Notes under the pieces: generated by a model
What the model was told of the DNA's origin: nothing
What the model saw: the letters and a program-made list of their open reading frames with translations, nothing else
The model's database searches: none
Part shown: one piece after another, positions 4,499-25,810 of the stretch
Layout: every line of letters begins with the position of its first letter
How positions within the stretch are numbered: position 1 is the stretch's first letter
Translations under genes and position numbers: made by a program
NCBI RefSeq assembly: GCF_023638035.1
Contig: NZ_JAKRVX010000010.1
Location: 1-64,000 of the forward strand
Length of the DNA: 64,000 nt
From: Natronocalculus amylovorans
Lineage (GTDB): Archaea; Halobacteriota; Halobacteria; Halobacteriales; Haloferacaceae
Direction: 5' to 3'

Positions 4499-5164
4499 AT
4501 GTCCGATACACGTAGTCACAACGTAGCCGCGGCACTGTCACGAAACCATGAGACTGCACTTGGCTGCAGAGATGATTGGTGGCATGAATCGCGTGCGAAA
4601 GAAGATCACGAACCGTCTCGTACCGATCGGCCGGATCCAAATGATCCTGCAACGATAATTGCGCATCAAATCCTTCGCGAGACGGGGACAATGCTGTGTG
4701 CAACGACACTGCTCGAAGAGCCCTGGAACGGTGGCCGAATGGCCGAACTCTTTGCGTGGTGTTTTGATGACAAGTTAATCGACGGTCGTGGCTACATGCT
4801 CCACTATGAAAACAAAGCGATCGAGCTCACAGAACCCACGTTGCGGACTGGCCGATCGTATGGCGATGAGTTTGGCGTTGGTGAGTACGGCCACTCACGG
4901 TATCGAAAGCGCGTCAATGCAGAGACGGGATACATTTCGGATGGTGAAACAACAAGCGTGGTCATCCAAGATCGTCCACTCGCAGAATTCATGGAGCTTG
5001 TTGAAACCTGGCTGCGAGGATGTCAAGCCCGTATTGATGGTCCGAGTGAGCAAGAGGTGACAGATGCACTCGATCTCGCGCGTGGCCTGAAAAAGAACAG
5101 CTGTCAGAACGACCTCCGTGACGTGGATATCCTCTCAAAAGTTATCGCGTCGATCAGGAACTAA
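4499..5164 (+). CDS. Hypothetical protein, first gene of the envelope cluster
   Basis: 221 aa, soluble, acidic, with no signal peptide or membrane segment and no motif I recognise. The ATG at 4499 has a TTAAAA TATA-like element about 25 bp upstream. It is followed after 20 bp by the giant membrane protein gene. CGATCG is frequent, as in the rest of the block to 25.8 kb. Its place at the head of the cluster suggests a cytoplasmic accessory or regulatory role, which is inference only. Confidence 0.6.
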   Translation: MSDTRSHNVAAALSRNHETALGCRDDWWHESRAKEDHEPSRTDRPDPNDPATIIAHQILRETGTMLCATTLLEEPWNGGRMAELFAWCFDDKLIDGRGYMLHYENKAIELTEPTLRTGRSYGDEFGVGEYGHSRYRKRVNAETGYISDGETTSVVIQDRPLAEFMELVETWLRGCQARIDGPSEQEVTDALDLARGLKKNSCQNDLRDVDILSKVIASIRN

Positions 5165-5184
5165 TCGAACGGTTCAATTTACCT

Positions 5185-8100
5185 ATGCCTACAAATCATC
5201 AACTCTCGAGTCGCATCGCTCATCAACTAACGCTTCGACATGCAGAAGCGATCACCCTCTCCGCAGCGACAATCGTCACCGTATTGACGTGGCTAATGGT
5301 TGGCTCTGGCGTTGCAACGGAAGTTAATCCAATCTCCGCATGGCTAATCGAAACACACGGTTGGGCCGCATTCTCTGGTATTAGATTGGCTGCCTATGCT
5401 TCGTTCTTCCTTGTTGCAGCACGTGTTCTCTCAAATACTGGTTGGTGTCGAACGATCGGCTATGGAGTTGTTTCGATCGTTACTACTGGAACGGTATTGA
5501 ACGCCGGACACGATTTCTGGCAAGCCTATACATGGGGCTATCCAGTCGTTATGCCAGATGGACTTGGTTTGATTATGGGTGTGAGTAGTATGACGATTGT
5601 GTTTTTTCGACGTGAAAAAATTAAAATATTGATCAACTCATCCATGCCGTCTATCACTGGCGAACAGTTCCGGGCGATCGCGTTGGCGCTCTTGATGGTC
5701 GCGAGCCTCCCGGCGATAACGGTTGCGTTTTCTGGTGGCTTTGGCGTTATCGACGGGGATCACAATGGGACAGCACTCGCGGACGAAGGTGATGAAGATG
5801 AATTGGGTTATATTTACACTGGGTCGAATGATGATACTGTCAAAAAAATAGACCCAGAAACGGGTTCGGTTATTTGGACCTTTGAAGGACATTCTGGAAG
5901 TTCTAATGGTGTATCTGTTTCTCACGACGGTGAGTCTGTATACAGTGCAGGAGGGGATGGTGACCACTCGGTAAGAAAGATAGATTCTGAATTAGGAACT
6001 GAAGTATGGTCATATGAAGAATCAGATGGTTCTGTAATCACAGCTGAAGAATCATCGGATGGCGGATCGGTTTACGTAGGAAAGCAATCAGGGGATACTG
6101 ACAACCTGGTGAAATTGGATGGTTCAGATGGTTCCTTGGTTTGGGAGTCTGACGCCCACTCCGACACGGTTGTGTCTGTGTCTCCTCACAATGATCATGT
6201 TTATACTGCCTCATTCGATGATACAGTAAAGAAAATCAACGGTGAGGATGGGTCTGTAGAATGGTCTTATGAAGGCCACTCTGACACTGTGAACGGAGTT
6301 TCAGTTTCCTCTTCCGGAGACTATGTTTACACATCATCTCATGACAACACCGTCAGAAAAATAGACGCAAGTGACGGGTCTGAGGAATGGTCTTATGAAG
6401 GCCACTCTGACACTGTTGCCTTCGCTTTCCCCCATGCCACTGAAGATTTCGTATATACTGCTTCATATGATGAAACTACGCGAAAGGTAGACGGTGAAAC
6501 CGGGGATGAAGTTTGGTCTACTGACATTCCAGGGAGGATGAGCTTCCAATCAAAGGCCGCACTAGCTGCTTCCGACGGGGTGTTTTATATCGGGCTTGAC
6601 GATGGGGATTATGCAGAAATAACCGATAACGGCGATTCCGGCGAAGTGACTGGAAACCACCAGCCCCACGAACCAGATAACTTTGTCCGGGTTGCATCCC
6701 AAACATCTACAACCCTCAAGATTACTGATACAATCACCGGAACCGTAACCGATCAAAACGGCGACCCAGTTGATCAGGCAACAATAGAAGCATATGGAAT
6801 TGATTTCTCTTCATTTGAAGATACAGCTGAAGATGCAGAACAAGCAGCTCGTGAACTCGAAGAACAAATAACGAATTTTGACCCTCCACAATTTAGTGAG
6901 TCAATTGATTTCAGTGATTTCACAGATGTAAGTGCAACGTATCCCCTCGTACACACGCGGAATAATTGGAACGAAGGTGGCCCTGCAGTTGGTATCGATC
7001 TTGCTGAACCATCTGTTATCCATGACGCTAATGAACCGCTCGTGATCAGTGCATGGGATCCAGACGAATCTGGAATTGTATCCGACTTCTTGAGTGGTCA
7101 AACACGTGATTGGCCTGGACAACCAGTCAACACTGAGATAACAATTACAGAATTAGATGCAACCGGAGATTCAACTGAAACAATTGAAATCCAAACTGAT
7201 GAAGAAGCATCTGCGTCAACATTTATCCAGACAATCAATATCGCGACGATCGACCTTCCACCCGGATTCTATCGAATTGAAGTTGAAGAATCAGGGGTCT
7301 CGTATGTTGTTGCAGTCTCGCCGGATGGTACACTAAACGGAATTCAAGGGATGATCACTGATGACATCCGTAATGAACAAGATCGGCTCACGGCACAAGC
7401 CGAGCGTGTTCGCGATCGCATCCAAGACGGAGGTCTCCAACGGACACAAACAACGACAGATGAGAATGGAAACTTCGAACTCGAATTGCCGGCAGGAGCC
7501 GATCGAGTTGCACTCCAGGCGACGAAAGGCCCAGACTTTGACCTCGAGTTGGATCAGTCAATAACTACACAAATTGAGAATGCTCGGAATGCAGGATACA
7601 ACGGGTCGATCTATGCGTCAACACGACCGAAGCGAATTGACGGCGATCGTGAAGAGCCGGTTGAGATACAAATGCAAAAGTTCGACACGACGCCGTTTGG
7701 TAGCATTGAGGACTTCCAATCGCTCCTAGCGAATTTTGAAGACCAATTATTCAACGAATCCATCGGAGATTTAGAGTCATTTGTTGATGATGTTCTTGAG
7801 GGAGATCTTGGTAAAATCCTGGATAATCAGCAAGAACTGATTGGGGATAATCAAGCAATCATCGAAGAGGCGCTTGAAGAGATTGGTCGATCTAGCATGC
7901 CAAGCGGTGATCGAATCGACGAAGAAGAAATCACAACGATCATTGAGACAATATTAGATGAAGAATCAGACGCAATCTCGGAGGAAGAACTCCAGACAAT
8001 TCTTGAGCAATTGCGTGATGATTTCGAATCAGATGGAACACTGTCAGAAGAAGAGATTGCCGAAATAATTGAGCAAAGTACTGAAGATCAACTCACAGAA

Positions 8101-9462
8101 GATGATATAGAAACGATCGCAGACTCAATCCGTGGCAACATCGACCAGCGTAACGCCGAGCTCGAAGAGACGATCGAGGCGCTTCAATCACGGATTAACG
8201 AACTCGAATCACTAGATATCAGTGCTGGCGATCCAGAAATTGAAGACGGACTCCTTTCGATAGGCTTCCCAACTGCATTTGATGTTGATGAAGACGATGT
8301 TGCAGTGCAGCTGAAATGGAATGATGGGTCAGTAGATGAGATTGATGAAGAGTACATCTCAATCGAAGATGGTGGGATGTTCGGTGGAAATGAGATCCGT
8401 GTAGACGAGTTCCCGTTCGAAGAGCTTGCAGATGGACGTGCGCTTGCAGATGTACAACTCCGTGTACTCTCTGGAGAGAGCTACGGCGAGTCGTCAGCTT
8501 CAATCTCGAATCCAGCATTCCAAGGCGACATTCCACGGCTGAACGGTGTTGATCTCACGACCATTCGACCAGGTCCAGACGAGACTGTTGGAGTGACTCT
8601 CAGACCACAATCAAATAGTGGCTATGGAGAGCTTGTTGACATTCGAGTCCGTGGTCCAGATAGACAAGATATCAACGCAACGATCGATGGAGAGCGAGCA
8701 ACGTTCAGAACTGAAGGTCCAGGCGCACACCGAGTCACTGCGACATTCACAAACGATGACGGTGAGCAGTTCCGCGAATCATTCCGTATCGGAGCGCAAG
8801 AGACAAGTGTCCGATCGACACCAACTGTGCGATTGACTGAGGGTTCACAAGGACCGCTCGCACTTGCTGGTGATGCAATCGCGGACACAGACATCGAGGA
8901 GCGATCGGATGGTACAGTAGACGTGAGTGCAGTAATTGATGGTTCAGACTCAATCCCTCGCGAGATCCATGTCCAACCGGATGCAGCTTTCCGATCATCG
9001 ACCGATCGACTAACGTTCCGTGTCCAACGCGGTGGTGAGCGCGAGTCCATCCGACAACACGTCTCAGTCGTGGTGCACTCCGAGCGGATGACTGATCGAT
9101 CGATTGTCTACCGGAATCGAGGAGAGGCGATCACTCGCGAAGGCACGACTCGGTTTGGTGAGATCGATCGATCAGATGACAAAGCAACAATCCAGACATA
9201 CACTGACGAACGTGGAGAGCTGAATATGGAACTGAATCACGATCCGTCTGGTGTCGATCGACTTGTCCACTGGGCCTCGATCCGAAGCCCGATAGATCTC
9301 TCTGCACTTGGATTGACAATCACAATACCAGAGATTCCACAGCCACCAGGTGTTGGACAGCTTAGCCAACCATACACACCGATTGTTGGCACAGCCACAC
9401 CGGGCTCAGTTGAGTTTGGGCCAACCGAGATGACCGCAATTCCACAGGAGGTGCGAGTATGA
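5185..9462 (+). CDS. Giant membrane-anchored beta-propeller / coiled-coil surface protein
   Basis: 1425 aa. Four hydrophobic helices within residues 20-145, and another at about 160-180, anchor the N-terminus. Residues about 205-500 are a beta-propeller of PQQ/WD-like blades with recurring TVKKID, GSVEWSYEGHSD and VYTAS units. A carboxypeptidase-regulatory-like segment (GTVTDQNGDPVDQA) starts near 515, with a matching DENGNFELELPAGADRVAL segment near 755. Residues about 850-1010 are a Glu-rich coiled coil, and the rest is Ig-like beta domains. This is a large extracytoplasmic adhesin or scaffold. Two blades share a 32-bp identical DNA stretch (6259-6290 and 6385-6416), so the propeller expanded recently. 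The gene overlaps the subtilase start by 4 bp. Confidence 0.75.
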   Translation: MPTNHQLSSRIAHQLTLRHAEAITLSAATIVTVLTWLMVGSGVATEVNPISAWLIETHGWAAFSGIRLAAYASFFLVAARVLSNTGWCRTIGYGVVSIVTTGTVLNAGHDFWQAYTWGYPVVMPDGLGLIMGVSSMTIVFFRREKIKILINSSMPSITGEQFRAIALALLMVASLPAITVAFSGGFGVIDGDHNGTALADEGDEDELGYIYTGSNDDTVKKIDPETGSVIWTFEGHSGSSNGVSVSHDGESVYSAGGDGDHSVRKIDSELGTEVWSYEESDGSVITAEESSDGGSVYVGKQSGDTDNLVKLDGSDGSLVWESDAHSDTVVSVSPHNDHVYTASFDDTVKKINGEDGSVEWSYEGHSDTVNGVSVSSSGDYVYTSSHDNTVRKIDASDGSEEWSYEGHSDTVAFAFPHATEDFVYTASYDETTRKVDGETGDEVWSTDIPGRMSFQSKAALAASDGVFYIGLDDGDYAEITDNGDSGEVTGNHQPHEPDNFVRVASQTSTTLKITDTITGTVTDQNGDPVDQATIEAYGIDFSSFEDTAEDAEQAARELEEQITNFDPPQFSESIDFSDFTDVSATYPLVHTRNNWNEGGPAVGIDLAEPSVIHDANEPLVISAWDPDESGIVSDFLSGQTRDWPGQPVNTEITITELDATGDSTETIEIQTDEEASASTFIQTINIATIDLPPGFYRIEVEESGVSYVVAVSPDGTLNGIQGMITDDIRNEQDRLTAQAERVRDRIQDGGLQRTQTTTDENGNFELELPAGADRVALQATKGPDFDLELDQSITTQIENARNAGYNGSIYASTRPKRIDGDREEPVEIQMQKFDTTPFGSIEDFQSLLANFEDQLFNESIGDLESFVDDVLEGDLGKILDNQQELIGDNQAIIEEALEEIGRSSMPSGDRIDEEEITTIIETILDEESDAISEEELQTILEQLRDDFESDGTLSEEEIAEIIEQSTEDQLTEDDIETIADSIRGNIDQRNAELEETIEALQSRINELESLDISAGDPEIEDGLLSIGFPTAFDVDEDDVAVQLKWNDGSVDEIDEEYISIEDGGMFGGNEIRVDEFPFEELADGRALADVQLRVLSGESYGESSASISNPAFQGDIPRLNGVDLTTIRPGPDETVGVTLRPQSNSGYGELVDIRVRGPDRQDINATIDGERATFRTEGPGAHRVTATFTNDDGEQFRESFRIGAQETSVRSTPTVRLTEGSQGPLALAGDAIADTDIEERSDGTVDVSAVIDGSDSIPREIHVQPDAAFRSSTDRLTFRVQRGGERESIRQHVSVVVHSERMTDRSIVYRNRGEAITREGTTRFGEIDRSDDKATIQTYTDERGELNMELNHDPSGVDRLVHWASIRSPIDLSALGLTITIPEIPQPPGVGQLSQPYTPIVGTATPGSVEFGPTEMTAIPQEVRV

Positions 9463-11045
9463 GACTCTCTCGCCGATCGTTCCTCAAGTCGGTTCCAGCG
9501 ACGATTGCAGCTGCAACACTCCCAACTCCAGCACACTCATCTGGTGTGTTTACAGAGCTCGCAACGACCTACCAGCCACTATTCGGATCTGGAGTCGGTC
9601 GTGATCGAGCGATCGAATATACATCGGACACACTCCCGTCATGGCACGTCGTCTACGCTGAGGATAAGCGTGATTCTCTCGAAACATGGATTGACAACCG
9701 AGACTCACGCTCGGTCCTGTCTGAACACGAGCCAACACGGACAGCAACGATCGTCGCCTCACCAGCAGATGTTGGGGCTGGCACACTCGATCGACTCCGT
9801 GGTCAAGGTCTCGGAGGAATGAGTTGGATCGAGGCAATCGATCTGAATGTCCAAATGGGTCTTGTGGAGCCGATCACCCGATTAGACGATCGAGATGATA
9901 CTGACGAGTTGCTCTCTGTCGATCGTTTTGAGCGTACCCTACTTCGTATTCAGGATGCGGGTGTTCCATCACCGCAAGGTGTTGCGTTCGCTGAAGAAGC
10001 ACCAGAAACAACACCGGCACAAGTTCGACGCTTGCTGGGTTTTGATTATGTAAGCGTTGATGACTCGACAGTGACGATCGCCGTAATTGACTCAGGCTGC
10101 AACACAGTAGACGGTGACGTCTTCGGTAATACTGATCGAATACTTCCAGCTTCAAAGAATTTCGTTAGTGGTGGCACGGTCGAATCTGAGGGGCTTGGCG
10201 TACTCGGCGATCCAAACGGTCACGGATCGTTTGTCGCCTCACAGATAGCTGCTAATCCATCTGATAATACATTCCAAGGTATTGCTTCAAACTGTGATTT
10301 ACTCATCTGTCGAGCACTTGGAGACGATGGGTCCGGCTCAACACGAGACATTATTGATGCAGTAACGTATGCAGCGGATCACGATGCAGATGTAATTTGT
10401 ATGTCGCTCGGATCGCCAATCTACTCAGCCGCTCTCGATCGAGCCCTGGCATACGCTGTTGGTGCAGGCTCGATTCCAGTGGTTGCAGTCGGCAACGATC
10501 GGCAAGCAACCCGTTGGGTCGCCTCTCCTGCATCTTCAGAGTGGGCGATCGGCGTGGGTGCCCTCACAGCTGAAGATCCAGATGATGCACAGTCTGCGTA
10601 TTTCAGTAATATTGGGCCACAACCAGGAACAACAGATCTCTCGAACGGTGAAACCGCTGATGCGCGACCTGATGTTGGGGCACCAGGCATGGAGATGCGA
10701 GCACTTGTTGGCCGGACGACTGGCTCAACACGTGAGCAAGTGTTGAGTGGCACTAGTATGGCCGCACCGATCGTTGCGGGAACCGTTGGGTTGCTCATCG
10801 CGAGTGATTCCGCATACAGAGGAGATTTAAATGCAATCCGCGATCGCCTTGAGTCGCACTCAATTGCACTCCCAAACGTTGCTCAAAATGAGACTGGTGC
10901 TGGAATGATCAATGCCGAAGCATTGCTCACAGGCAGTGAGACCGATGGACAGGCGGACTCAATGACAGACGAGGCTGCACTCAGAAATGAAGCCTACGCT
11001 GCACTCTCAAACAATCAAGGCGGATTGCTCACACAGCTCTTCTAA
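9459..11045 (+). CDS. Tat-exported subtilisin-like serine protease (S8)
   Basis: 528 aa. The N-terminus has a Tat signal (SRRSFLKS, then an Ala-rich stretch). After a propeptide-like region come the catalytic motifs: Asp in VIDSGC (about 210), His in GHGSFVAS (about 252), the oxyanion Asn in VAVGND (about 347) and Ser in SGTSMAAP (about 430). It would act outside the membrane. It overlaps the giant surface protein by 4 bp and is followed 2 bp later by another Tat substrate, so it probably processes a surface component made by the same cluster, for example one of the large exported proteins. That link is inferred. Confidence 0.9.
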   Translation: MRLSRRSFLKSVPATIAAATLPTPAHSSGVFTELATTYQPLFGSGVGRDRAIEYTSDTLPSWHVVYAEDKRDSLETWIDNRDSRSVLSEHEPTRTATIVASPADVGAGTLDRLRGQGLGGMSWIEAIDLNVQMGLVEPITRLDDRDDTDELLSVDRFERTLLRIQDAGVPSPQGVAFAEEAPETTPAQVRRLLGFDYVSVDDSTVTIAVIDSGCNTVDGDVFGNTDRILPASKNFVSGGTVESEGLGVLGDPNGHGSFVASQIAANPSDNTFQGIASNCDLLICRALGDDGSGSTRDIIDAVTYAADHDADVICMSLGSPIYSAALDRALAYAVGAGSIPVVAVGNDRQATRWVASPASSEWAIGVGALTAEDPDDAQSAYFSNIGPQPGTTDLSNGETADARPDVGAPGMEMRALVGRTTGSTREQVLSGTSMAAPIVAGTVGLLIASDSAYRGDLNAIRDRLESHSIALPNVAQNETGAGMINAEALLTGSETDGQADSMTDEAALRNEAYAALSNNQGGLLTQLF

Positions 11046-11047: not shown

Positions 11048-11827
11048 ATGAATCACTTACGACGATCGTTTCTGCGTAGCGGCGCAACTCTTGGTTCTAT
11101 TCTAACAATTCCACTACTAAGTGGGCGATCAGTTGGAGAGGAGGCTGGAGAGTGGCAAGAGGAGTGGCCGAGCCTCACGTACTCATTTAATCGAGCGGAG
11201 GTCGAACGGTACCAGCCGCTGCTTGTAGCGAGCCGTGATGCTCGGCGGAAAATGCGAGCGATGTACGGGATGAAAGTTCAGTCGGACAGCAATGATCTTG
11301 ATTGCTATGTTTACTGGATGCAGTACACACATCAAGACGGCTCAGCAGAGACTCTGGAATGGCTTGGTGATCTCTTAGCAAGAGACACGCACCTGTGGGA
11401 TCACGAACCATCGTACATTTACGTCGATCCAGATACCAATGAAGTCGATCGAATCGTCTGCACTGGATATCATCATTTTGCGCTGGAACTTGATCCGGAC
11501 GACGAAAACGTTCTGATGAGCGAAGACCGTGTCCCAGGCGTTGAAACACACGTGAATTTGGATGTTGTAAGTCCGTGGCATCATTACCGAACTGCCGATC
11601 GAGAAGGGACATATGCAGAACTCGTCTCGTGGCTTGAGAAGCGCGATGCATGGAAAGATAATGGCTTCTATGATCGAACAGCAACAGAAGCGATCGAAAA
11701 CCCATACTCAATGCTTGATCGCGACTCGTGGTGGGATGAATCAACGTGGGATTACCGATTTGGCAAGTTGTGGATTCAACTCGGACTCGGTGGTGCTCGC
11801 GAGACTGACGAACTGAGAATTCTATAG
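11048..11827 (+). CDS. Tat-exported protein of unknown function
   Basis: 259 aa. It starts with a Tat-type signal (LRRSFLRSG, then a hydrophobic core). The mature part is rich in Trp, Tyr, Asp and His and has no membrane segment. Neither a lipobox Cys nor a known domain is visible. It begins 2 bp after the subtilase stop and shares its high CGATCG content, so the two are co-transcribed and may work together at the cell surface. Confidence 0.65.
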   Translation: MNHLRRSFLRSGATLGSILTIPLLSGRSVGEEAGEWQEEWPSLTYSFNRAEVERYQPLLVASRDARRKMRAMYGMKVQSDSNDLDCYVYWMQYTHQDGSAETLEWLGDLLARDTHLWDHEPSYIYVDPDTNEVDRIVCTGYHHFALELDPDDENVLMSEDRVPGVETHVNLDVVSPWHHYRTADREGTYAELVSWLEKRDAWKDNGFYDRTATEAIENPYSMLDRDSWWDESTWDYRFGKLWIQLGLGGARETDELRIL

Positions 11828-11833: not shown

Positions 11834-11947
11834 ATGATACAATCAAGAATCAATACCGCTAATCGTGCTAAATTGAACGAAGGAGGAGGCCTTCCGCCAC
11901 CTCCAGTTCCACCACCGAAGCTAACCAACAGTTGCATCAATCGCTAA
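11834..11947 (+). CDS. Candidate proline-rich microprotein, 37 aa
   Basis: A short frame opens 6 bp after the preceding gene and encodes a basic N-terminal part followed by a GGGLPPPPVPPPK segment and a short tail. The poly-proline stretch is unusual for random sequence and could bind an SH3- or EVH1-like surface. The frame overlaps the two CTAACCAACA direct repeats, so it may just be transcribed operator sequence. It is below normal gene-finding length and needs comparative support. Confidence 0.3.
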   Translation: MIQSRINTANRAKLNEGGGLPPPPVPPPKLTNSCINR

Positions 11948-11953
11948 CCAACA
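11921..11953. repeat. CTAACCAACA direct repeats, site 2
   Basis: Two identical 10-mers at 11921-11930 and 11944-11953, 23 bp centre to centre, both preceded by G. They lie 18-50 bp upstream of the ATG of the exported protein at 11971, so a bound protein would cover the promoter. This is the only site with direct rather than inverted arms. Confidence 0.6.
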
Positions 11954-11970
11954 AGACGACACGTTTTCCA

Positions 11971-13104: not shown

Positions 13105-13105
13105 G

Positions 13106-13378
13106 ATGTCTCAGCGAAGCCAAGCAGTCTGGCGTATTTTCGCATTTGTGTATTCGCTCACGATCGCAGCAATCATTTCAAGTGTTGTGACGATCATCGC
13201 GATCGTCTGGGGAGCGATCGACGTCCTGTGGCAGTTGATCAGCGGTCGAAACACATTGTCTGAAAATTCGAAGCCAGCAACTGTAGTCACTGCAACCCTC
13301 CGGTGGAACGTGGAGATGTTGATCTTTGCAACCACTGGAGGTGGCGTCAAGCGACTTGAGTGGCTTCCAAGTTGGTAA
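13106..13378 (+). CDS. Small membrane protein, 90 aa
   Basis: ATG at 13106, directly after the preceding stop. There is one long hydrophobic region (about residues 10-45) that could make one or two helices, and a second short hydrophobic segment near 70. No known domain. The tight spacing suggests it works with the surface protein encoded just upstream. After it the cluster has its longest non-coding gap (about 140 bp), filled by the structured region below. Confidence 0.6.
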   Translation: MSQRSQAVWRIFAFVYSLTIAAIISSVVTIIAIVWGAIDVLWQLISGRNTLSENSKPATVVTATLRWNVEMLIFATTGGGVKRLEWLPSW

Positions 13379-15741: not shown

Positions 15742-15933
15742 ATGGGTATTCCAACATCAATCACGGGCTGGATTGCACTCTTTGGTGTCATCGTGTTCAT
15801 CATCATTGCGCTATATGCGACCACAGCCTGGACGATCGTCGTCGGTGGGCTCTTACTGATCCTTGGTGGCTACATCGCGTATGTGGTGTTGTATAGAGTC
15901 GATCGGCTACTGAAACACGGGAGCTTACGGTGA
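15742..15933 (+). CDS. Small membrane protein, 63 aa
   Basis: The ATG at 15742 comes 1 bp after the preceding stop. Two predicted helices (residues 8-28 and 30-50) and a basic C-terminus. Unknown function; a small membrane subunit of the cluster. Confidence 0.55.
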   Translation: MGIPTSITGWIALFGVIVFIIIALYATTAWTIVVGGLLLILGGYIAYVVLYRVDRLLKHGSLR

Positions 15934-16197: not shown

Positions 16198-16198
16198 A

Positions 16199-16645: not shown

Positions 16646-18645
16646 TGCGGACATCTAAGCGATTTGGCGAGCACATCCAACAGAAACAGAAGCGAAAGCG
16701 ACTCGTAAAGATCGATGAACGGATTCGGGAAGCGATCGAGATTGGGAATCGTGCACTTTCTGACGGTGACATTGAGAAAGCCGCTCTAACAATGGATCAG
16801 GTAATCCTTCCAGCGCTCAAAGAGCGTGAGGGACATCTACACTGGCGAGGATTCAACAAGCGGCTTCGAAACAACGACACACATGAATGGCACTGGGACT
16901 CGCTCAAACGGTTTGTTGATGATTCAGACTATTATATTGAGCAGGTTACTGGAGACAGTGTCAGTCCACGAAGCCAGCCAGTTCGACGGACGATCCAAGC
17001 CTTCGAAAGCGTCGAAGCAGTTTGTGCGATGCTTGGAATCGTCAAAGACGAGATGCGGAACTACGCAAAAGCAACCGGCTACTCGATTCAGACCGGTGTT
17101 CTCTACAAGACATACGAGTTCAATCACGATCGCGAAGTCTCGATCGTCTCGAGGAGCTCTGGACTGACCAAAACACTGTTCAACGGCGAGACTGGTGAGG
17201 GGAAATCTGCATCAATGAGTGCGGACGTCGAAGACAGGTATAACACTGGGTTCAAAATTGTGGATATTGTTGACACAGACGAGTTCGAGAACGCAGTATA
17301 CGACATCCCGCAACAACAGAACGTTCTACGGCGTGTCCGTGAAGATATGGGACTTCCTGTGGATTTCACAGAGTCATCCGACTACAAAAAGCCACAAATT
17401 GAGGTGCTTGCTCCAATGACTCCCGCAGTCACCGATCACCGACTCCCTTATAATATGGATTCCGATGAATTTGTAATCAGACCATTCACGATCCCGGCAG
17501 CAGACCTGTCGAAGCGAGCACTGCTTGGATTTATGGGATCAGTTGTGACGAAGCAGCAAGGCGTCGCGATCGGCACAGCATATGAAGCACTCCGAGATGA
17601 CAAAGATGACTGGACACTTCGAGATCTCGCGAGTTATGTTGATCACCTGGAGGGGCTTGCAGACAATTTCAAAGCTCGGATCCGAAAACTGCTGGCAACG
17701 CTCCAATCAAAGGGATTCATTCGCGATCGCGACTGTCCACATGCGCTCAATTGGGAGGATATCTTCCGCGATACAGAGACAATTACAGTCTTTTCGCAGG
17801 CACTGATGCGCGAACGAGAGGATAAACTGATGGTAATCGCGTATCTCACTCGATCGCTGTATCACGCTCGGAAGTTCCATCGTGGACTCCCTGATTGTGC
17901 CGGCGTGTTTCGAGAACTACACGAGATTGTCGGCCACCAGAACGCTCGATCGGATGATGAGCGAGAGAAAGCGATCCAACAGGGAATCAAGACAGAACTC
18001 GGCTATATCATGCGGAAAAACCGGCATGAAGGACTAGAGTTACTCTGTGACACCCAAGACTTCACTGACTTGGATAAGAACGTCAGAAAGCGGTTCAACC
18101 GGGCAGTATCGTTCCTCACACAAGATGATGCGATCAAAGCCTTGTTCGAGAACGTCTCTGGAAACAAGGCCATGTACCATGATTACGGGAACACTGTTGC
18201 TCGGAACTTTGGAAAGGGTCAAGGGACGGTATTCGGGAAGACTGGCCCAAATGCGGACGGCTCAACTCCATTCTTAACTCCAGTGCATTTTGCCCCACCA
18301 TCATGGCACGTGTTGGACACAGATGAGGCTGATGACGGCCTCATTGCACGGACAATGTTCTACGATCGGGAAGAGCTTCGACGTCCACAGTGGAACACAG
18401 ACATTCCTGACCGACTCAAAGTGCCAGAAGACAAAGACGAGGAAGAAGATCGCCGCCCACAACAGAGCGTCAAAGATCTTCATCGAGACGAAGCTCGGCG
18501 ACGAGCCCGTAATGGTGAAACGGTCCGGAGTATCCGCGAAAACATCCCGAACAACCCACGAACAGAGAACCCGTATTCCACCAGTACGATCCACGGGTGG
18601 ATTAAAGACATAACCCCAGATTATACAGTCTCATCAGAGGCATAA
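16645..18645 (+). CDS. VirB4/HerA-like P-loop ATPase with C-terminal HTH
   Basis: 666 aa. Walker A is GETGEGKSA at about 181-189. A Walker B-like FRELHEIVG lies near 425-433, where an Asp-Glu pair would be usual. An N-terminal helical domain precedes the core, and residues about 610-660 look like a helix-turn-helix (DEARRRARNGETVRSIRENI, then a STIHGWIKD helix). The size and layout fit motor ATPases of the VirB4/TraG/HerA/packaging superfamily that energise conjugation, secretion or genome packaging. Immediately upstream are five small membrane proteins, as expected for a membrane-docked motor. The exact family cannot be fixed by eye. Confidence 0.6.
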   Translation: MRTSKRFGEHIQQKQKRKRLVKIDERIREAIEIGNRALSDGDIEKAALTMDQVILPALKEREGHLHWRGFNKRLRNNDTHEWHWDSLKRFVDDSDYYIEQVTGDSVSPRSQPVRRTIQAFESVEAVCAMLGIVKDEMRNYAKATGYSIQTGVLYKTYEFNHDREVSIVSRSSGLTKTLFNGETGEGKSASMSADVEDRYNTGFKIVDIVDTDEFENAVYDIPQQQNVLRRVREDMGLPVDFTESSDYKKPQIEVLAPMTPAVTDHRLPYNMDSDEFVIRPFTIPAADLSKRALLGFMGSVVTKQQGVAIGTAYEALRDDKDDWTLRDLASYVDHLEGLADNFKARIRKLLATLQSKGFIRDRDCPHALNWEDIFRDTETITVFSQALMREREDKLMVIAYLTRSLYHARKFHRGLPDCAGVFRELHEIVGHQNARSDDEREKAIQQGIKTELGYIMRKNRHEGLELLCDTQDFTDLDKNVRKRFNRAVSFLTQDDAIKALFENVSGNKAMYHDYGNTVARNFGKGQGTVFGKTGPNADGSTPFLTPVHFAPPSWHVLDTDEADDGLIARTMFYDREELRRPQWNTDIPDRLKVPEDKDEEEDRRPQQSVKDLHRDEARRRARNGETVRSIRENIPNNPRTENPYSTSTIHGWIKDITPDYTVSSEA

Positions 18646-18885
18646 CCTTCGAAGCAGTAGCAAAACACAAGACACAGACCACCGCGTGCGGGGTTGTTCG
18701 TTCGTTCGCTGGTTTTGGCCCGCTACCCTCGCCTCACGTTGCTGAACAACGCGCGTGTTCGGCTGGCGCGTTCAAATACCGAATATCAGAGAACGATTTC
18801 GCTCCTGCGTGCGTGCAAATTTTTGCTGTTCGTGCACACTCAGCGCGCACTGCGTGCATCGATCGACAAAATCACAACCACATTC
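18646..18885. other. GC-rich non-coding gap with repeated GCGTGC-like strings
   Basis: This is the largest gene-free stretch in the cluster (240 bp). It is locally GC-rich, with many GCGTGC/GCGCGC strings and an imperfect long hairpin between GTTGTTC and GAACAAC. CGATCG, common on both sides, appears only at its right end. A rightward frame enters here but its sequence does not look like protein, so the AAA+ gene most likely starts at 18886. It may hold a promoter or a small RNA. Confidence 0.35.
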
Positions 18886-20052
18886 ATGGACGTTCAAATT
18901 ATCACAGAAGCGATACGATCGGGGGCGACACGATCGTCAGAAATTGCAGCGTTTGCGGATCTCGATCCCTCAACAGCCCGTCGGTATCTCAAGCAGGCAT
19001 GCGAAGACGATTCAACGGATATTGTGCGTGCAAAAGCATCCAGCGGGACGGGATATGTCTATGCGATCGAAGAGACACAAGCCGAGGAATCAGCGGCTGA
19101 AATGCCAGTCTTTGGCGATCGAGACTACGCGTGGGAACAGTTTGTCCCAGCACCGAGTGACACCACGTACGTCGAGACCGACGGTGAACTGAGCGATATC
19201 GAAGCGATCGTCGACTCCAGGCATGACACTGGACAGTTGCCGAGGTTCAGACTGTCAGGACCACCCGGAACCGGGAAAACGACACTCGCACGGTCGATCG
19301 CAGCCGAGCGGCAGTGGCCGTTCTTCACGATCCAATTCACCGCGTCAATGCGCGATTCTGAACTCTTCGGTAGTCCGCACATTATTGGCGGTGATTCAGT
19401 CTGGGTTGACGGTCCACTCGTGAAAGCACTACTATGTTCACAGGTTCGTCCGACTGTCGTGGTACTCGATGAAGTGAATCGAGCCCCATTTCACCGAAAG
19501 TCTTCACTCCAGAGCGTGCTGGATCACCGTGCACACGCGACCCTCCCACTTCGAGGAGGCGAAGTAATCGACGGAGCAGCTGAGGACTTTGTGACGATCG
19601 CAACGATGAACGAAGGGAGTGAATATGAAGCATTCCCGATCGATCCCGCGGAAAAACGCCGTCATGGAAACACATGGGAGATCCCGTTCTTGGGATTAGT
19701 GGACGTCGATCGAGAAGTAGAGCTGCTCGTTGGTGCAACCCCGGTCAACTACGAGCTCGCACGTGTGTTCGTCCTTGCAGCCAACGAAGTTCGAGAGCTG
19801 GCACTGCATGATGAAACCTCGCCAATCCAGAAAGGAATCGCGACGTCGACGCTCTTAGAGTGGGCGAAGACAACGATCGCATACCATACACGCGATCGTC
19901 CTGATCCAGTCGCTCGGGCAGCAAAAACTGCCGTCGTCCGGCCACATTACACTGACTACGCTGCCGAAGAAGTGCAAGCCGTGTTGTTGGATACACTCCG
20001 CTCGAAGCATCAAGAACAGAGACAACAGGCGAAAAGAGGTGTCCAACCATGA
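18886..20052 (+). CDS. MoxR/CobS-type AAA+ ATPase with N-terminal HTH
   Basis: 388 aa from the ATG at 18886; codons upstream of it are Arg/Leu-rich and unlike the neighbours. Residues 1-60 resemble a winged helix. The AAA+ module has Walker A GPPGTGKT at about 125-132 and Walker B VVVLDEVNRAP at about 191-201, the typical MoxR/CobS form with an ELFG segment before it. MoxR ATPases usually pair with a VWA protein to remodel or load a target complex, and the VWA gene overlaps this one by 4 bp. A chaperone role in building the envelope machine is the simplest guess. Confidence 0.8.
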   Translation: MDVQIITEAIRSGATRSSEIAAFADLDPSTARRYLKQACEDDSTDIVRAKASSGTGYVYAIEETQAEESAAEMPVFGDRDYAWEQFVPAPSDTTYVETDGELSDIEAIVDSRHDTGQLPRFRLSGPPGTGKTTLARSIAAERQWPFFTIQFTASMRDSELFGSPHIIGGDSVWVDGPLVKALLCSQVRPTVVVLDEVNRAPFHRKSSLQSVLDHRAHATLPLRGGEVIDGAAEDFVTIATMNEGSEYEAFPIDPAEKRRHGNTWEIPFLGLVDVDREVELLVGATPVNYELARVFVLAANEVRELALHDETSPIQKGIATSTLLEWAKTTIAYHTRDRPDPVARAAKTAVVRPHYTDYAAEEVQAVLLDTLRSKHQEQRQQAKRGVQP

Positions 20053-21137
20053 TTGATGATCGTTCAAGGCTCCTCTTTGAGTGGTTAGACGGTGCCATCG
20101 TTGATCAAAACAATGATAGTGAGCAGTCACAAGATGATCAATCTGACCCAAAACAGGAGGACGAGTCTACAGACGACGATCTCGGGCTCGAGCTTCTGCT
20201 TGCGGATGCAGGTGATAGAAGTAACGATGATGAAGAGATTGATGAGTCTGAATTAAATGATAGTGGAGTCGGTGGCTGGGAAGATAGCGATCGACACGTC
20301 GACGTCCCGTGGAACGATTCACTTGATGAGCGTGACGATCGTATCGACAACTACCGTGGTGATGCACCACATAGAGATGTCCGTTTATATCTTCGTGAGA
20401 GTGGCCTTATTGACGATATCAAGTCCGAGCTCAACTCGATCGGTCAGGGTGAAGAGGACATGACGGATGAAGACGGCTCAGTGTTGGACATGCGAAACGT
20501 CACGCGACTGCTTGCCGGAGATACGACCGTTAAAGATTACTACAGACGTCGGAATCCAACGCCCCGTGGAGATCTCGCTGTTGGCATCTCGATCGACATG
20601 TCCGGCTCAATGAGTTCATGCGAACTAGATGCAAAAGCTGCAGTTGGTGGATTTCTATTCGCTGTCCAGGAAAATGGTGGGGCAGTCGTGGCAAATGCAT
20701 GGCGTGGATCGAGCTCACAAACAGAGATTGAGTTACTTACAGGCCCGCACGAACCATTTCGTTGGTCTCATCTCGATGCCACAGAGCCAGGCGGTCAGGA
20801 TCCGATCGCTCGGGGAATGTTCGAATGTGGCCAAATGTTAGCGCAGACGCGCCCGCGTGAGAAACTTTTGCTCGTGATTACGGATGGGAAACCCAACGTC
20901 CAATCCAGAACGCAAGGAGTCTACGACTCAGTCATTGATGAAGCGCAAGCAACGGTCGACGAGCTGCGATCGATGGGCCTGATGGTTGTCGGGCTTGGGT
21001 TTGGGAATGCTCGAGAGAGTAATCTTGTATCGATCTTCGGCAGAGAATTCACGTACATTGTTTCGCTCGAAGACCTTGCAGTCGAGTTCGTGCAGTGCTA
21101 CGAAGAGCACAATCAACCCAATCTGCTGACGGCCTAA
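20049..21137 (+). CDS. VWA-domain (CobT-like) partner of the AAA+ ATPase
   Basis: 362 aa. The first 140 residues are very acidic and likely disordered. The VWA domain begins at about residue 177 and has an intact MIDAS: DMSGSMS near 184, a later Thr-containing loop, and LLLVITDGKPN near 278. Starts within the last codons of the MoxR gene (ATGA overlap), the standard MoxR-VWA arrangement. It should bind Mg and present a substrate to the ATPase. Confidence 0.8.
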   Translation: MIDDRSRLLFEWLDGAIVDQNNDSEQSQDDQSDPKQEDESTDDDLGLELLLADAGDRSNDDEEIDESELNDSGVGGWEDSDRHVDVPWNDSLDERDDRIDNYRGDAPHRDVRLYLRESGLIDDIKSELNSIGQGEEDMTDEDGSVLDMRNVTRLLAGDTTVKDYYRRRNPTPRGDLAVGISIDMSGSMSSCELDAKAAVGGFLFAVQENGGAVVANAWRGSSSQTEIELLTGPHEPFRWSHLDATEPGGQDPIARGMFECGQMLAQTRPREKLLLVITDGKPNVQSRTQGVYDSVIDEAQATVDELRSMGLMVVGLGFGNARESNLVSIFGREFTYIVSLEDLAVEFVQCYEEHNQPNLLTA

Positions 21138-21220: not shown

Positions 21221-21257
21221 CTCTATAGAATAAAACTCGTTATGCAGAGTGATTACG

Positions 21258-21464
21258 ATGGTCGACGAGACTGACGTCTCGTTAACCACAAACGGCAATG
21301 GCGCACAGGCATATTTCAACACCAATTTACTCGGCGATACGGCATGCCCACTAGATCCCGGTGATCGCTGTCGGGCGATCGCGGTCCAATATGGTATTTT
21401 ACTCGTCCCAGAGACAGACGAGCGATCGTTTACAATTGAGGTGGTGACAACAGATGACCAATAG
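21258..21464 (+). CDS. Small AbrB/SpoVT-like protein, 68 aa
   Basis: The ATG at 21258 (an in-frame GTG lies at 21249). A beta-rich segment with PLDPGDRCRAIAVQYGILLV resembles the swapped-hairpin AbrB fold, a DNA-binding domain common in small haloarchaeal regulators. The end overlaps the next gene by 11 bp. It could regulate the second half of the cluster. Confidence 0.4.
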   Translation: MVDETDVSLTTNGNGAQAYFNTNLLGDTACPLDPGDRCRAIAVQYGILLVPETDERSFTIEVVTTDDQ

Positions 21465-22398
21465 TGGTAGATTTCCTCGGATTCGACAGCTCTACGACGT
21501 TGCTACGAATCCGAATCGCTACCGAAATGAAGATGAGACCGATCTTGATGAATACGTCTCCCCGAATGAATGGCGTGATACGGCAAAGCCTGGATGGGGC
21601 GACCGGATCAAATCTCGCCGTCATACCATCCTCTCGTTTGGATTCATCGGCTTTCTGGTTGTACTTATCATCGGTGTCCATAGCCAGCGATATCTTCCAG
21701 AACTCTATGGAAATCCAATACTGAGCGAAGCGATCAAATGGTTGATTGCGATCCCAACGACGTGGGTTCTCGCAACGAAATGGCAGCGGGGACGGATCGC
21801 TCGACTCGACCAGCTTCACTTGAAAATCGGTGAGGGGGTCAAATCATACTACGGCGTCCTTGAGTCAGATTCAGATGGAAATTATCTGTTTGTCCCGTTG
21901 AAAGGCTTTGACTGGTTTGGTCTTCGTGGACGTCGACTAACGCTTGGAGATCTCTCCGATGATATGGCCGAGGACTTTGCAAAACAGGGTCGACAGCCAG
22001 ACGATCCCGCCAAAATCAGATTAGAGGATTCAATGTACGCAGTGAAAGAGACGGCACTCGGTGATGTTGCCGTGTCACTCACATCTGGATTACAGATCGA
22101 TGGCTACGGGAGAGAGTCCGATCTATACACGTCACCTCCGGATATTGCCGATGAAGAGTCCTACAAGCAACTTGCAGTAACACTCGAGAAAGTCGTTGAC
22201 GAAGTGCAGCACCTTCGAGATGAAGTCCAGGCACGTACTCGACAGCGGAACAAATGGAAGGCGGAAGCCGAGAAAGAACGCCAAGAAATCCGAGATGAAG
22301 TGATGAATATTATCGAAAAGACTGGCGAGGCTGGAGTCTACCGATCGGGTCGAAACAGCCGGCCACGAACGATTTCAATGAATGGTGAATCCGAATGA
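21454..22398 (+). CDS. Membrane protein with C-terminal coiled coil
   Basis: 314 aa. A soluble 50-residue N-terminus, two membrane helices at about 60-80 and 92-112, then a beta-rich cytoplasmic domain (about 120-230) and a coiled coil (about 235-290, KQLAVTLEKVVDEVQHLRDEV). The arrangement suits an inner structural or tethering subunit. Overlaps both neighbours, so it is tightly co-translated with the genes at 21258 and 22395. Confidence 0.6.
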   Translation: MTNSGRFPRIRQLYDVATNPNRYRNEDETDLDEYVSPNEWRDTAKPGWGDRIKSRRHTILSFGFIGFLVVLIIGVHSQRYLPELYGNPILSEAIKWLIAIPTTWVLATKWQRGRIARLDQLHLKIGEGVKSYYGVLESDSDGNYLFVPLKGFDWFGLRGRRLTLGDLSDDMAEDFAKQGRQPDDPAKIRLEDSMYAVKETALGDVAVSLTSGLQIDGYGRESDLYTSPPDIADEESYKQLAVTLEKVVDEVQHLRDEVQARTRQRNKWKAEAEKERQEIRDEVMNIIEKTGEAGVYRSGRNSRPRTISMNGESE

Positions 22399-23975
22399 AC
22401 GTGAATGTTGATCGATTCTGTTCGGTATTCATCGCTGCACTGGTTGTTGCGGTGATGTTATCTATCTCAGTATTCGCGAGTGGGATCGCGATAGCAGATG
22501 AAACAAACAATACAACCGCGATCGAGACAGAGGGTGCGATCCTTACTGCCTCACATCTCTCCTATATCGATGAAGAGGTAACAAGACAGCAAGAGGACGA
22601 TCGTCCGCTCTACATTGCTGCCGACGATCAACTCCGATTGGTTCCACAAAACTTCGCGATGGACAACGTTGAGCGATATGGCGTTGAAACAGATGCTGGA
22701 ACGCTCACAGTCAACGATGACTTTGGATACTTCGAATTTGACGGCCAAGGAAACACGGGGACGTTCGAGATTTGGTTTGAGGTGGATGAAGAAGTTGAAC
22801 AAGGGAATGAAACCGTCACCGATCGTGTTCGCTACGAGGCAATTGTCCGTATCGATGAGGCCACTGAATATGAGCATCATCCAGCAGGGACGCTTGATCA
22901 ACAGCGTGAGGACGCTGCTAATTGGAGTGCATTTGTCTCAAATGTTGAGCGGATCGCAGGTTCAGACGCAGACATGGATGAACAAACCGATCTCGCGATC
23001 GCACTTTTAGAGTTCCGATCGAATCCACTTGCAGCACTGACTGGCGACTTTGCGGGTGTGATAATTCTCTTAACGATGACTCCAGGAGGATGGTTCACAC
23101 TCCTGCTCTTCGCGATGATCTTCGCAGTCTCTACGTACGGCATGCGAAAGCGACTCAACCTATTCGAATCTACAAGCAGTGAACGCGTTCAATTAGATGA
23201 GCAACTCTCTGAGCTCGAGCTCAAGAACAAGAAACAAGCGCTGGAAAACATGGATTGGCAAGACATTCCAGGCATGGACGATCGCACCGCACGGGCGTTC
23301 CGTGACTCAATGGGTGTCAACCCACTCGAAGGGATCACCCGGCTGCTTGCTGTTGTTAGACCGAATGCACTGGTTCGGGATCGGCTTCTTGCGATGAGTC
23401 AATCTGGGTACGTTGCACTTGTTGAACGAACAGATGCACGGACAGACGGAGGGAGTGATAGCGTCGGATCAATAGAGGCTGTTGAACTTGTCCACGCCGA
23501 TCGAGTTCTCGATACTGAAAAACGCGAAGTTGATGATCTCGAAGATCCGTCTGAAGAACTGATTGCAGCACTTGACTGGAACGATCCAGAGCTGCAAAGC
23601 TTCGATTTACCGAATGCTTCGATCGATACAAGCGAGATGCGAACTGAATTGTCAGCTGTTAATTTCGAGGATCTGATGCAGGAGGTACAAGCATCGAGGT
23701 TTGACTTCGAGGATGAAGCCGTGTACGGACAATACATTGCAGAGTTCGTTAAATCAGTCCGAGAACACAACTTTACAGATCAACACGGGCGCGTCGATGA
23801 AACACGCTATGTGATGAATCAATTTCTACATCTGAGCAATGTGACCGACGACATCTTCGAATTCCCAGTGTTGGATTTCGTTGGCGACGCAGTTGAGCGA
23901 GAGCTCATCGATCACAATCCAGTTGAGGAAACTGAACGATACGTGAAAGACGTCGAGGATGGTCGATACTCATGA
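22395..23975 (+). CDS. Single-span membrane protein with large domains on both sides
   Basis: 526 aa. A signal peptide (residues about 10-32) leads to an exported beta-rich domain (about 40-200). A hydrophobic segment at about 215-248 follows, then a long acidic cytoplasmic domain with a helical RVQLDEQLSELELKNKKQ region. Type I topology suggests it couples an outer structure to cytoplasmic ATPases. Overlaps both neighbours by 4 bp. No family recognised. Confidence 0.6.
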   Translation: MNVNVDRFCSVFIAALVVAVMLSISVFASGIAIADETNNTTAIETEGAILTASHLSYIDEEVTRQQEDDRPLYIAADDQLRLVPQNFAMDNVERYGVETDAGTLTVNDDFGYFEFDGQGNTGTFEIWFEVDEEVEQGNETVTDRVRYEAIVRIDEATEYEHHPAGTLDQQREDAANWSAFVSNVERIAGSDADMDEQTDLAIALLEFRSNPLAALTGDFAGVIILLTMTPGGWFTLLLFAMIFAVSTYGMRKRLNLFESTSSERVQLDEQLSELELKNKKQALENMDWQDIPGMDDRTARAFRDSMGVNPLEGITRLLAVVRPNALVRDRLLAMSQSGYVALVERTDARTDGGSDSVGSIEAVELVHADRVLDTEKREVDDLEDPSEELIAALDWNDPELQSFDLPNASIDTSEMRTELSAVNFEDLMQEVQASRFDFEDEAVYGQYIAEFVKSVREHNFTDQHGRVDETRYVMNQFLHLSNVTDDIFEFPVLDFVGDAVERELIDHNPVEETERYVKDVEDGRYS

Positions 23976-25810
23976 TTGATGGAACCGTACTCCAGACAGA
24001 CCTCCGGGTATGGCAACTCTCAGCTGCGGCCGTAGTGTTGGCAGCGATCGCCATTGCAGCGGTCGTAATACGGTATTCATCGATATTTGCATCGCTCCCC
24101 GAAGAGCAAGCACGAGAAAAGCGGGGATTGATCGGACAACGTGAGGATCAAACCCCACAAACACTCCGCATTCCAGCCGGTGAAGACCCTGAAGACTACC
24201 GCGAAGCCATCCGATCGCTGTTCGATCGATCACAAGATATAGATCAAATTCAAGATCGTGCAACGCTCCGTGATGGATTCAAATCCATCCGAAAAGAACT
24301 ACGGACACTGTGGGGGCAAAAAACAGAGCGTGTGCCAAATCTCTCGCTTGCCTACGCAGAAGAGGCGATCGCGATCGCAGTCTTGGGGCTACTCGCAACC
24401 GTAGGACTTGAAACAGTTGAGGAAATATTTGCAACTGGTAGCGCAGATCTATCCCCATCTGTTGTTACCGAATCAGGAATAGAGGCACTCCAAAGCGCTG
24501 CTGAAACAGGGGTCTCCACTGTTTCGGCCTTCCCATTTGCTGGTGATATTTGGGCGCTGACGTTTGCTGGTGCTGTCCTCCTCGCGGAGTTTCTCTTCTA
24601 CAACCCCCTTGTTTCCGCTGTAACACTCGCAGTGTTTGCAGTCCTAATCGGATTCTTAGAACGACAGGTTCCAGAGGCAGTCGATATCGATCTGTTCGAT
24701 CGGCGATCCCTGCTCGTCGGCGGTATTATCACGATCGCAACAACGTGGCTTGCAGGGGCTATTCCTGCATCGATCGGTGCAGCACTCGGTGCTCCGGTTG
24801 GTGGCGCAGTCGTTGGGATGGTCTTCGCAATCGGAGTCTTCAGCCTTGGTGCATGGATTGGGATTGGATTAGCTCGACAACGCATCCAGTATCTCTCTCT
24901 AAAGTTGGATGGCCAACCGCAATCGATCGTTGCATACGTGCTGCTGCAGCGACTCAGCATCGCAATCGCAGGGGTACTAATCCCACTTATCCCGATCTAC
25001 GTGGTCTATCTCTTGATTAGCGGCCGGTTAGTGGCTGTTGTAGGAGCGTATCTTCAAGGCTCACTTCTCATGCAAGTTCTACTCGCGATCGTTGTAGGAA
25101 CGCTCGTGGCGATCGTTGCATACCAGGTACGAGACACATGGCCAGAGCTCCGAGCAGGATTCGAGGAGACATTTTCGAGACAAGCAATCAAGATTGCGTT
25201 CATTGCACGCGGTATTCCGGTCGCGATCGTTGTCTTTGCCGGTCTGGTTGCGTATTCGTTTGCGGTTCCGCTTCCGCTTGTAATTGCAGTTGCACTGTTT
25301 GCTGGGCTCGTAACTCGTGGGTCGATCGCGATCGCTGCTCGATTGAAACGCAAATCAGATCTTATTGAACGCGAGCCAGTGACAGCAAATCGGGTGGTGA
25401 TCTCTGCGTACGTCCTTGAAACAACCAGCGGTGAGGAACGATACTACGCGACGGTCAACACAACCCGACTCGCACACCAGGAGAAGGGAGCGCTTGTCGA
25501 CGCGATCGTCCAAGCTTCTCATGCATTGTTTGAGGATGGTGATGTCGAACCATCGATCGAACAGCAGTTCGCGATCGATCTGTTCGAATTAGGGGTGACA
25601 GACATCAATGAAACAAGAGTTCGGTTATACGAACGAGCTCGCTTGATCTGTAACCGCACATTCTCGAAGCGTGGAAAACGAGTTGAGAGCGAGACATTAG
25701 AACAGCTGCTCTCGAAAGACGTTCCAGAGCCAATCTATCGATCGTATCTTTCGCGAAGACTCAACCAACAAGAGCTGCGGCATCGAGACGGCTACTACGC
25801 GATCGTGTAG
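23972..25810 (+). CDS. Large polytopic membrane protein, last gene of the cluster
   Basis: 612 aa. One helix at 14-34, then a charged linker, then about nine more helices between residues 120 and 455, with Gly/Ala-rich segments (a SIGAALGAPVGGAVVGMVFAI stretch). The last 150 residues are soluble and mixed alpha/beta. The number of helices and its place next to the ATPase and the tethering proteins make it a candidate core membrane channel or platform. Ends the co-directional block; site 3 of the CTAACCAACA repeat follows 36 bp later. Confidence 0.6.
   Translation: MIDGTVLQTDLRVWQLSAAAVVLAAIAIAAVVIRYSSIFASLPEEQAREKRGLIGQREDQTPQTLRIPAGEDPEDYREAIRSLFDRSQDIDQIQDRATLRDGFKSIRKELRTLWGQKTERVPNLSLAYAEEAIAIAVLGLLATVGLETVEEIFATGSADLSPSVVTESGIEALQSAAETGVSTVSAFPFAGDIWALTFAGAVLLAEFLFYNPLVSAVTLAVFAVLIGFLERQVPEAVDIDLFDRRSLLVGGIITIATTWLAGAIPASIGAALGAPVGGAVVGMVFAIGVFSLGAWIGIGLARQRIQYLSLKLDGQPQSIVAYVLLQRLSIAIAGVLIPLIPIYVVYLLISGRLVAVVGAYLQGSLLMQVLLAIVVGTLVAIVAYQVRDTWPELRAGFEETFSRQAIKIAFIARGIPVAIVVFAGLVAYSFAVPLPLVIAVALFAGLVTRGSIAIAARLKRKSDLIEREPVTANRVVISAYVLETTSGEERYYATVNTTRLAHQEKGALVDAIVQASHALFEDGDVEPSIEQQFAIDLFELGVTDINETRVRLYERARLICNRTFSKRGKRVESETLEQLLSKDVPEPIYRSYLSRRLNQQELRHRDGYYAIV

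Follow-up and report, generated by a model that had tools for sequence, protein, structure and literature searches.

Coat and engine genes reassort among pR1SE-like elements of haloarchaea, and a Natronocalculus amylovorans contig carries a second engine type

We analyzed a stretch of 64,000 nucleotides from Natronocalculus amylovorans (hereafter the window), which forms the first part of an 83,923-base contig, and in it a block of 20 genes at positions 4499 to 25810 with homology to genes of the plasmid pR1SE. This block very probably serves a pR1SE-like plasmid-vesicle element as its cluster for particle formation and plasmid loading, with an engine of a second type. The coat genes (4499-14260) reassort freely between engine types, and the engine from ORF17 on stays linked. 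Genes bear the open reading frame (ORF) number of their pR1SE counterpart or are designated by their first position in the window.

pR1SE (KX687704) is a plasmid of Halorubrum lacusprofundi that disseminates in self-encoded vesicles with plasmid-encoded proteins (PMC10818511). These vesicles infect plasmid-free cells (PMC10818511, PMC10117752, PMC10384203) and need no cell contact to do so (PMC10818511). A 2023 survey described 40 relatives, the apHPVs, with two gene clusters, cluster 1 consisting of ORF6-9 and cluster 2 of ORF17, ORF21 and ORF23-25 (PMC10818511). At least 3 hits were required to consider a contig and 5 to call it 'complete', the mean identity of ORF25 was 41%, and 'incomplete' apHPVs were proposed to be remnants (PMC10818511).

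Homology to pR1SE and the two engine layouts

Hereafter type 1 designates the published layout and type 2 the window-like layout. A tblastn search of PLSDB with the motor protein of the block (16645) returned four haloarchaeal plasmids, each carrying the same block, and pattern scans with smaller motor alignments returned two IMG/VR contigs and three genomes. Type 1 motor patterns found nothing in IMG/VR. In all, gene order is kept across 18 type 2 elements located on plasmids, on chromosomes and on the two IMG/VR contigs, which are mutually identical in the sequence compared. Type 2 replicons include NZ_CP019330, NZ_CP026314, NZ_CP135527 and NZ_CP040639, and among the type 2 hosts are Natrinema pallidum BOL6-1 (with pNPA70) and Salinigranum rubrum GX10. 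Because the order is conserved in these 18 elements, the block is not a chance assembly.

To relate the two types we compared hhalign profiles of 17 type 2 elements with those of six type 1 elements (pR1SE, pHTUR05, two Natrialbaceae plasmids, G230 and G025). By profile, 13 genes of the window could be paired with genes of the pR1SE family, among them ORF6-9, ORF17, ORF22, ORF24 and ORF25 (Table 1). The cluster 1 order ORF6, ORF7, ORF8, ORF9 is present in the window, with an hhalign probability of 100 for each gene. From cluster 2, ORF17, ORF24 and ORF25 were matched at the E-values given in Table 1, a similarity far below that within the published set, and the published order with ORF25 last is not followed by the window. 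No counterpart of 15742, 15940, 16178, MoxR or VWA was found in the six type 1 elements by the same comparison.

The motor and ORF25 are collinear over 517 columns that run through the P-loop, REL..I..P/H and (D/S)TQ..D(L/V).K.VR motifs. An early view that the two are unrelated, formed when tblastn gave only the four plasmids, was ruled out by this profile comparison. The window motor alone has no Pfam match and no predicted transmembrane (TM) segment, but 8 of its 17 orthologues match HerA DUF87 (best E-value 1e-5) and 4 of the 17 match FtsK_SpoIIIE, which supports the VirB4/HerA-like motor of the original prediction, a reading of the sequence made without database searches. That prediction also proposed that the machine was undescribed. 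Instead, the block corresponds to the core genes of the pR1SE-like plasmid-vesicle elements (PMC10818511), its motor and membrane proteins being assigned to this described system through sequence homology and not through structure. The prediction was right in reading a machine of the envelope or of a particle, in which a motor, a maturation protease and surface parts are combined, and in calling the layout unusual, as the engine half is a second type without description in the published survey. As a separate observation, the C-terminus of the type 2 motor (profile positions 610-700) is probably a winged helix. It has matches in many haloarchaeal proteins about 1,050-1,540 amino acids long, which are not motors of this type.

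The two engine types differ in order and in sequence. All type 1 elements have the motor gene at the end, following ORF24, whereas in every type 2 element that keeps those genes it is found after ORF17 and before the ORF22 homologue. The main engine proteins have a mean identity of 12-16% between types vs 23-45% within types. The coat genes are 24-37% identical, within types and between types alike. When profiles built from the six type 1 elements were run on type 2, only ORF6 and ORF8 among the six survey proteins reached at least 50 bits, short of the five of six or more that the criterion asks of published-type profiles. Judged by these profiles, the window element is a sister type and not an apHPV by the letter of the survey definition. 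As no more than two of the six survey proteins come up to 50 bits with type 1 profiles, type 2 elements were probably missed by the 2023 survey or filed as incomplete. That the mean identities of the survey (41% for ORF25) fit type 1 alone supports the same view.

We then took a census of 394 Halobacteria genomes. ORF8 was present in 41 genomes, the type 2 motor in full length in 15 and the type 1 motor in 27 (the sample is a draw from the class and the 15:27 ratio is approximate). Two further matches to the type 2 motor were weak and are type 1 motors. ORF8 was present in all 15 genomes with the type 2 motor (chance 1.3e-16) and in 26 of the 27 with the type 1 motor, and one or other engine type was found in 39 of the 41 ORF8 genomes, with neither in G024 and G299. 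That coat and engine form one system is supported most strongly by these linkage counts. Type 2 makes up 15 of the 39 genomes of the sample that bear coat and engine.

Both engine types occur on separate contigs in G090 and G120, and in G090 a type 1 ORF25 fragment lies just downstream of the type 2 engine. The chromosomal type 2 copies of G017 and G307 have coat and motor without recognizable 21454, 22395 and 23972, and are likely decayed integrations.

Reassortment of coat and engine

Gene trees were built for 42 elements (24 type 1 and 18 type 2), mostly with FastTree, and for each tree the minimum number of engine-label changes was compared with the mean for shuffled labels. Monophyly of the motor is by construction because engine type was assigned from the motor; monophyly of the other engine genes is independent of that assignment. 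The engine label was unclustered on the six coat-gene trees, with 8 changes for 4499 (shuffled mean 7.7), 10 for ORF6 (10.9), 11 for ORF7 (12.7), 11 for ORF8 (12.8), 13 for ORF9 (13.8) and 12 for 13520 (13.2). It was almost or fully clustered on the seven engine-gene trees, with 3 changes for 14184 (12.0), 2 for 21249 and a single change each for ORF17, 21454, 22395, 23972 and the motor. ORF7 and ORF8 were additionally analyzed with IQ-TREE and the approximately unbiased (AU) test, and a single type 2 clade was rejected for both (p 9e-69 for ORF7, the S8 protease, and p 6.5e-6 for ORF8). The breakpoint between coat and engine lies between 13520 and 14184, at about 14.2 kb, and the engine module extends from about 14184 to 25810.

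The exchange is clearest in one pair of elements. The coat genes of the type 2 element of Natrinema pallidum and of the type 1 element G164 (for which one circular join was assumed) are 77, 48, 70, 69, 64 and 48% identical, and their engine genes 23, 12, 31, 13, 13, 13 and 17%. At the DNA level the two are about 70% similar as far as 13.8 kb, and the similarity returns from 29.4 kb onwards, within the integrase region. The converse case is found in the type 2 elements G365 and G204, with motors 85% identical and ORF8 only 26%.

We consider it likely that in plasmid-vesicle elements the coat and a DNA-loading engine are two modules that evolve independently of each other, and that at least two anciently diverged and differently ordered engine types are swapped as cassettes under the same coat, much as modules are exchanged among tailed viruses. 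A previously undescribed engine would then be used by a sizeable share of the elements, in some cases with a recruited MoxR-VWA chaperone shared with viruses. If this is true, the 'cluster-1-only' elements of the literature may include complete type 2 elements and not remnants.

The MoxR-VWA pair occurs in 5 of the 18 type 2 elements, always between the motor and 21249. Its carriers belong to five lineages on the engine tree (five changes, same slot). The MoxR proteins are 61-70% identical, more conserved than the engine, which fits either an ancestral pair that was then lost or repeated gain. MoxR and VWA homologues co-occur in three tailed haloviruses, HHTV-2, HCTV-2 and Hardycor1, and neither term appears in the text of PMC10818511. 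We also observed that the MoxR with its N-terminal helix-turn-helix (HTH) and the VWA protein (window 18886-21137) are common to plasmid-vesicle elements and three tailed haloviruses (L058, L059 and L060).

Proposed function and alternative readings

From homology and linkage we infer that the window element makes vesicles, in which direction DNA is transported and what each protein does. The Sec- or Tat-exported ORF6-ORF9 and the 13520 protein would be displayed on a vesicle budding from the host membrane, where the S8 protease probably matures coat proteins and membranes may be the target of the NEP1-like ORF8. The HerA/FtsK-type motor, probably hexameric, would dock on the membrane proteins 21454, 22395 and 23972 and pump the plasmid into the forming vesicle, with the small membrane proteins and 16178 probably helping in assembly or docking. 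Where it is present, in a minority of elements, MoxR-VWA may be an accessory remodelling chaperone.

Several points weigh against this reading. ORF25 was not found in pR1SE vesicles, and its loading role is the inference of the authors who reported this (PMC10818511). ORF21 has no recognizable counterpart in type 2 in the hhalign profiles, and 22395 is related to ORF23 by its position and by a match that covers only 47 columns (probability 90.6). The motor and 23972 were modelled with AlphaFold from alignments of 4-5 rows, and both models were unusable (pLDDT 48.7 and 49.5); because of this, the motor fold rests on sequence profiles. The cargo of the engine could be something other than DNA.

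We also considered cell-contact conjugation of the archaeal type IV secretion system (T4SS)-like or Ced/Ted-like kind, in which cells would be joined by a channel built of the motor and the membrane proteins, with surface proteins mediating mating. The many membrane proteins would suit it, as would a motor of the HerA/FtsK superfamily whose counterpart ORF25 is structurally similar to VirB4, TrwB and HerA and to the STIV2 packaging NTPase (PMC10818511). However, features of a conjugative T4SS, namely a relaxase and a VirB4-type ATPase, were not found: MOB-suite typed all four PLSDB plasmids with a window-type motor as non-mobilizable, and the host genome has no AAA_10 (VirB4-type) match. Moreover the pR1SE homologues sit in vesicles that infect without cell contact (PMC10818511), and we regard conjugation as very improbable.

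That the element is a true enveloped virus of a new pleomorphic haloarchaeal lineage, rather than a plasmid, is very improbable, although the boundary between virus and plasmid vesicle is partly a matter of definition. The type 2 engine does occur on IMG/VR contigs, the MoxR-VWA pair is held in common with tailed haloviruses and the motor is of packaging type. Against this, the block proteins tested with Pfam and PHROG gave no capsid, terminase or pleolipovirus spike/VP3-like match, tblastn of the motor against 50,697 phage records gave no match to it, and ParA, two Orc1/Cdc6 genes and CRISPR-Cas are plasmid-like. A decayed remnant, with pR1SE material limited to the coat cluster and unrelated plasmid genes beyond it, is extremely unlikely: published-type engine profiles do stay below 50 bits on the window engine genes, and the chromosomal copies of G017 and G307 lack part of the engine, but the frames are intact, the engine order is kept in 18 elements with exclusive linkage to the coat, and engine genes are profile-homologous to ORF17, ORF22, ORF24 and ORF25.

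An intermediate place between plasmids and viruses is discussed for plasmid vesicles, whose published family has a single described engine layout. This family is enlarged by a second engine, present in about a third of the coat-bearing genomes sampled. Separate functions for the two gene clusters have been suggested in print; the sharp break near 14.2 kb supports this suggestion and makes it testable. Membership of the loading engine can be defined by linkage alone, and natural pairs with the same coat and a different engine, such as Natrinema pallidum pNPA70 and G164, are ready-made comparisons.

Gene content, replicon and known systems

All 20 genes of the block (Table 1) lie on the plus strand with intact frames. 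The original prediction had given about 21 co-directional and mostly overlapping genes; the shared direction stands, and stop/start overlaps of a few bases are common (9459/9462, 16645/16645, 20049/20052, 22395/22398 and 23972/23975). Its exported proteins, subtilase, propeller surface protein and many membrane proteins were recovered in signals, Pfam matches and hydropathy. Three twin-arginine (Tat) signals (9459, 11048 and 13520) and Sec-type signals of 11932, 14760 and 22395 were read from the sequence. Pfam matched the PQQ_2 propeller, the S8 subtilase and MoxR (AAA_5), with VWA below threshold at 22.6 vs a cut-off of 23.8 bits. A hydropathy scan predicted three TM segments in the giant 5185 protein, three in 14498, two in 15742, three in 15940, three in 22395 (including the signal) and about eight in 23972, and further segments in 13088, 14184 and 21454. 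The predicted MoxR-VWA pair is present, but it is optional and not a defining part.

ORF6 consists of an N-terminal membrane domain, a PQQ/WD40 propeller, a coiled coil and a conserved beta-rich C-terminus. ORF8 has the invariant columns H115/D118/E120, and a weak match to NEP1 in the PDB (E-value 0.5) spans this motif. The 22395 protein has a signal peptide, an extracytoplasmic beta domain, a TM pair and a large cytosolic part.

Table 1 Genes of the block, with window coordinates and supporting evidence (prob, hhalign probability; E, E-value).
Gene	Position	Strand	Evidence
Cytosolic protein upstream of coat operon	4499..5164	+	Counterpart pR1SE 5098-5754; prob 99.9; same place in other elements
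ORF6, giant surface protein	5185..9462	+	Pfam propeller; hhalign to pR1SE ORF6 family, prob 100, E 6e-174
ORF7, Tat-exported S8 subtilase, putative maturation protease	9459..11045	+	Pfam S8 1e-39; tblastn pR1SE 34%; prob 100
ORF8, Tat-exported, NEP1-like	11048..11827	+	tblastn pR1SE 33%, E 4e-29; prob 100
ORF9, S-layer-like coat protein, Sec signal and C-terminal membrane anchor	11932..13104	+	prob 100, E 1.8e-49
Small membrane protein	13088..13378	+	Counterpart pR1SE 14306-14602; iterated profile
Tat-exported protein, last gene of reassorting coat module	13520..14260	+	prob 99.9; tree unclustered by engine type
Small membrane protein at module junction	14184..14498	+	Probable start about 14253; prob 98.8
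Small 3-TM protein	14498..14821	+	Orthologues in 12 type 2 elements; type 1 counterpart weak at most (prob 72)
ORF17 homologue, exported, first gene of fully linked engine	14760..15740	+	prob 97.9, E 3.7e-13
Small 2-TM protein	15742..15933	+	Type 2 specific: 17 orthologues, none in type 1
Small 3-TM protein	15940..16197	+	Type 2 specific: 17 orthologues, none in type 1
Soluble coiled protein	16178..16645	+	Probable start 16199; type 2 specific: 17 orthologues, none in type 1
HerA/FtsK-superfamily motor, divergent relocated ORF25 orthologue	16645..18645	+	prob 99.3, E 1.7e-20, 517 columns
MoxR AAA+ ATPase, N-terminal HTH	18694..20052	+	AAA_5 3.7e-25; start more likely 18886, from orthologues
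VWA protein, MoxR partner	20049..21137	+	Sub-threshold Pfam VWA; homologues beside or near MoxR homologue in haloviruses
Small protein	21249..21464	+	Counterpart pR1SE 20352-20588; prob 96.4
ORF22 homologue, single-TM	21454..22398	+	prob 96.8, E 3e-10
Positional ORF23 homologue	22395..23975	+	prob 90.6 over 47 columns only; position
ORF24 homologue, polytopic (about 8 TM), candidate channel	23972..25810	+	prob 96.8, E 2.5e-10; hydropathy

A membrane protein matching DUF6338 lies directly upstream of the block (2462-4015), and the G+C content of the block (window 4000-26000) is 46-54%, lower than the 57.6-64.8% given for apHPVs (PMC10818511). Orc1/Cdc6-like genes flank the block (444-1532, minus strand, and 26402-27604, plus strand) and a ParA gene is found at 37929-38744 (minus strand). 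With this Orc1/Cdc6-like pair and ParA, the replicon carries genes of its own for replication and partition. A type I-B-like CRISPR-Cas system occupies 39606-55012, with cas6, cas8 (TM1802), cas7, cas5 and cas3 on the minus strand (50471-42702) and cas4 and cas1 on the plus strand (50746-52314). Of its two arrays one has about 46 repeats and the other about 36. The presence of this system agrees with the reported defence systems of apHPVs. The window spacers gave only chance matches of 15-16 nucleotides to related elements, and one longer match was rejected as a degenerate repeat. In the IMG/VR contigs L061 and L062, the nearest type 2 elements by motor (ATPase 57% identical), an array at 13377-15853, downstream of the engine, matches the CRISPR repeat of the window.

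With the DNA translocases HerA, VirB4 and FtsK the type 2 motor has a P-loop motor in common; it differs from them, together with ORF25, in a conserved REL..IxxH/P motif, possibly at the Walker B position. The MoxR-VWA pair is homologous to that of Hardycor1, whose genes lie in a replication/accessory module (PMC7911831), whereas the window genes hold a fixed slot in the engine module. As a MoxR-VWA pair it can be likened to p618/p892 of ATV, for which PMC7911831 cites a chaperone function in the development of extracellular tails, and on this analogy an accessory role in particle remodelling is plausible. Compared with pR1SE and the apHPVs, including H. turkmenica pHTUR05, type 2 has its motor upstream, after ORF17 and small membrane proteins, whereas that of pR1SE is last; 15742, 15940 and 16178 are specific to type 2, MoxR-VWA is optional and ORF21 is not recognizable. 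Both are carried on plasmids or integrated, both have the coat genes ORF6-ORF9 and their neighbours in the same order, and the coat is as similar between engine types as within them.

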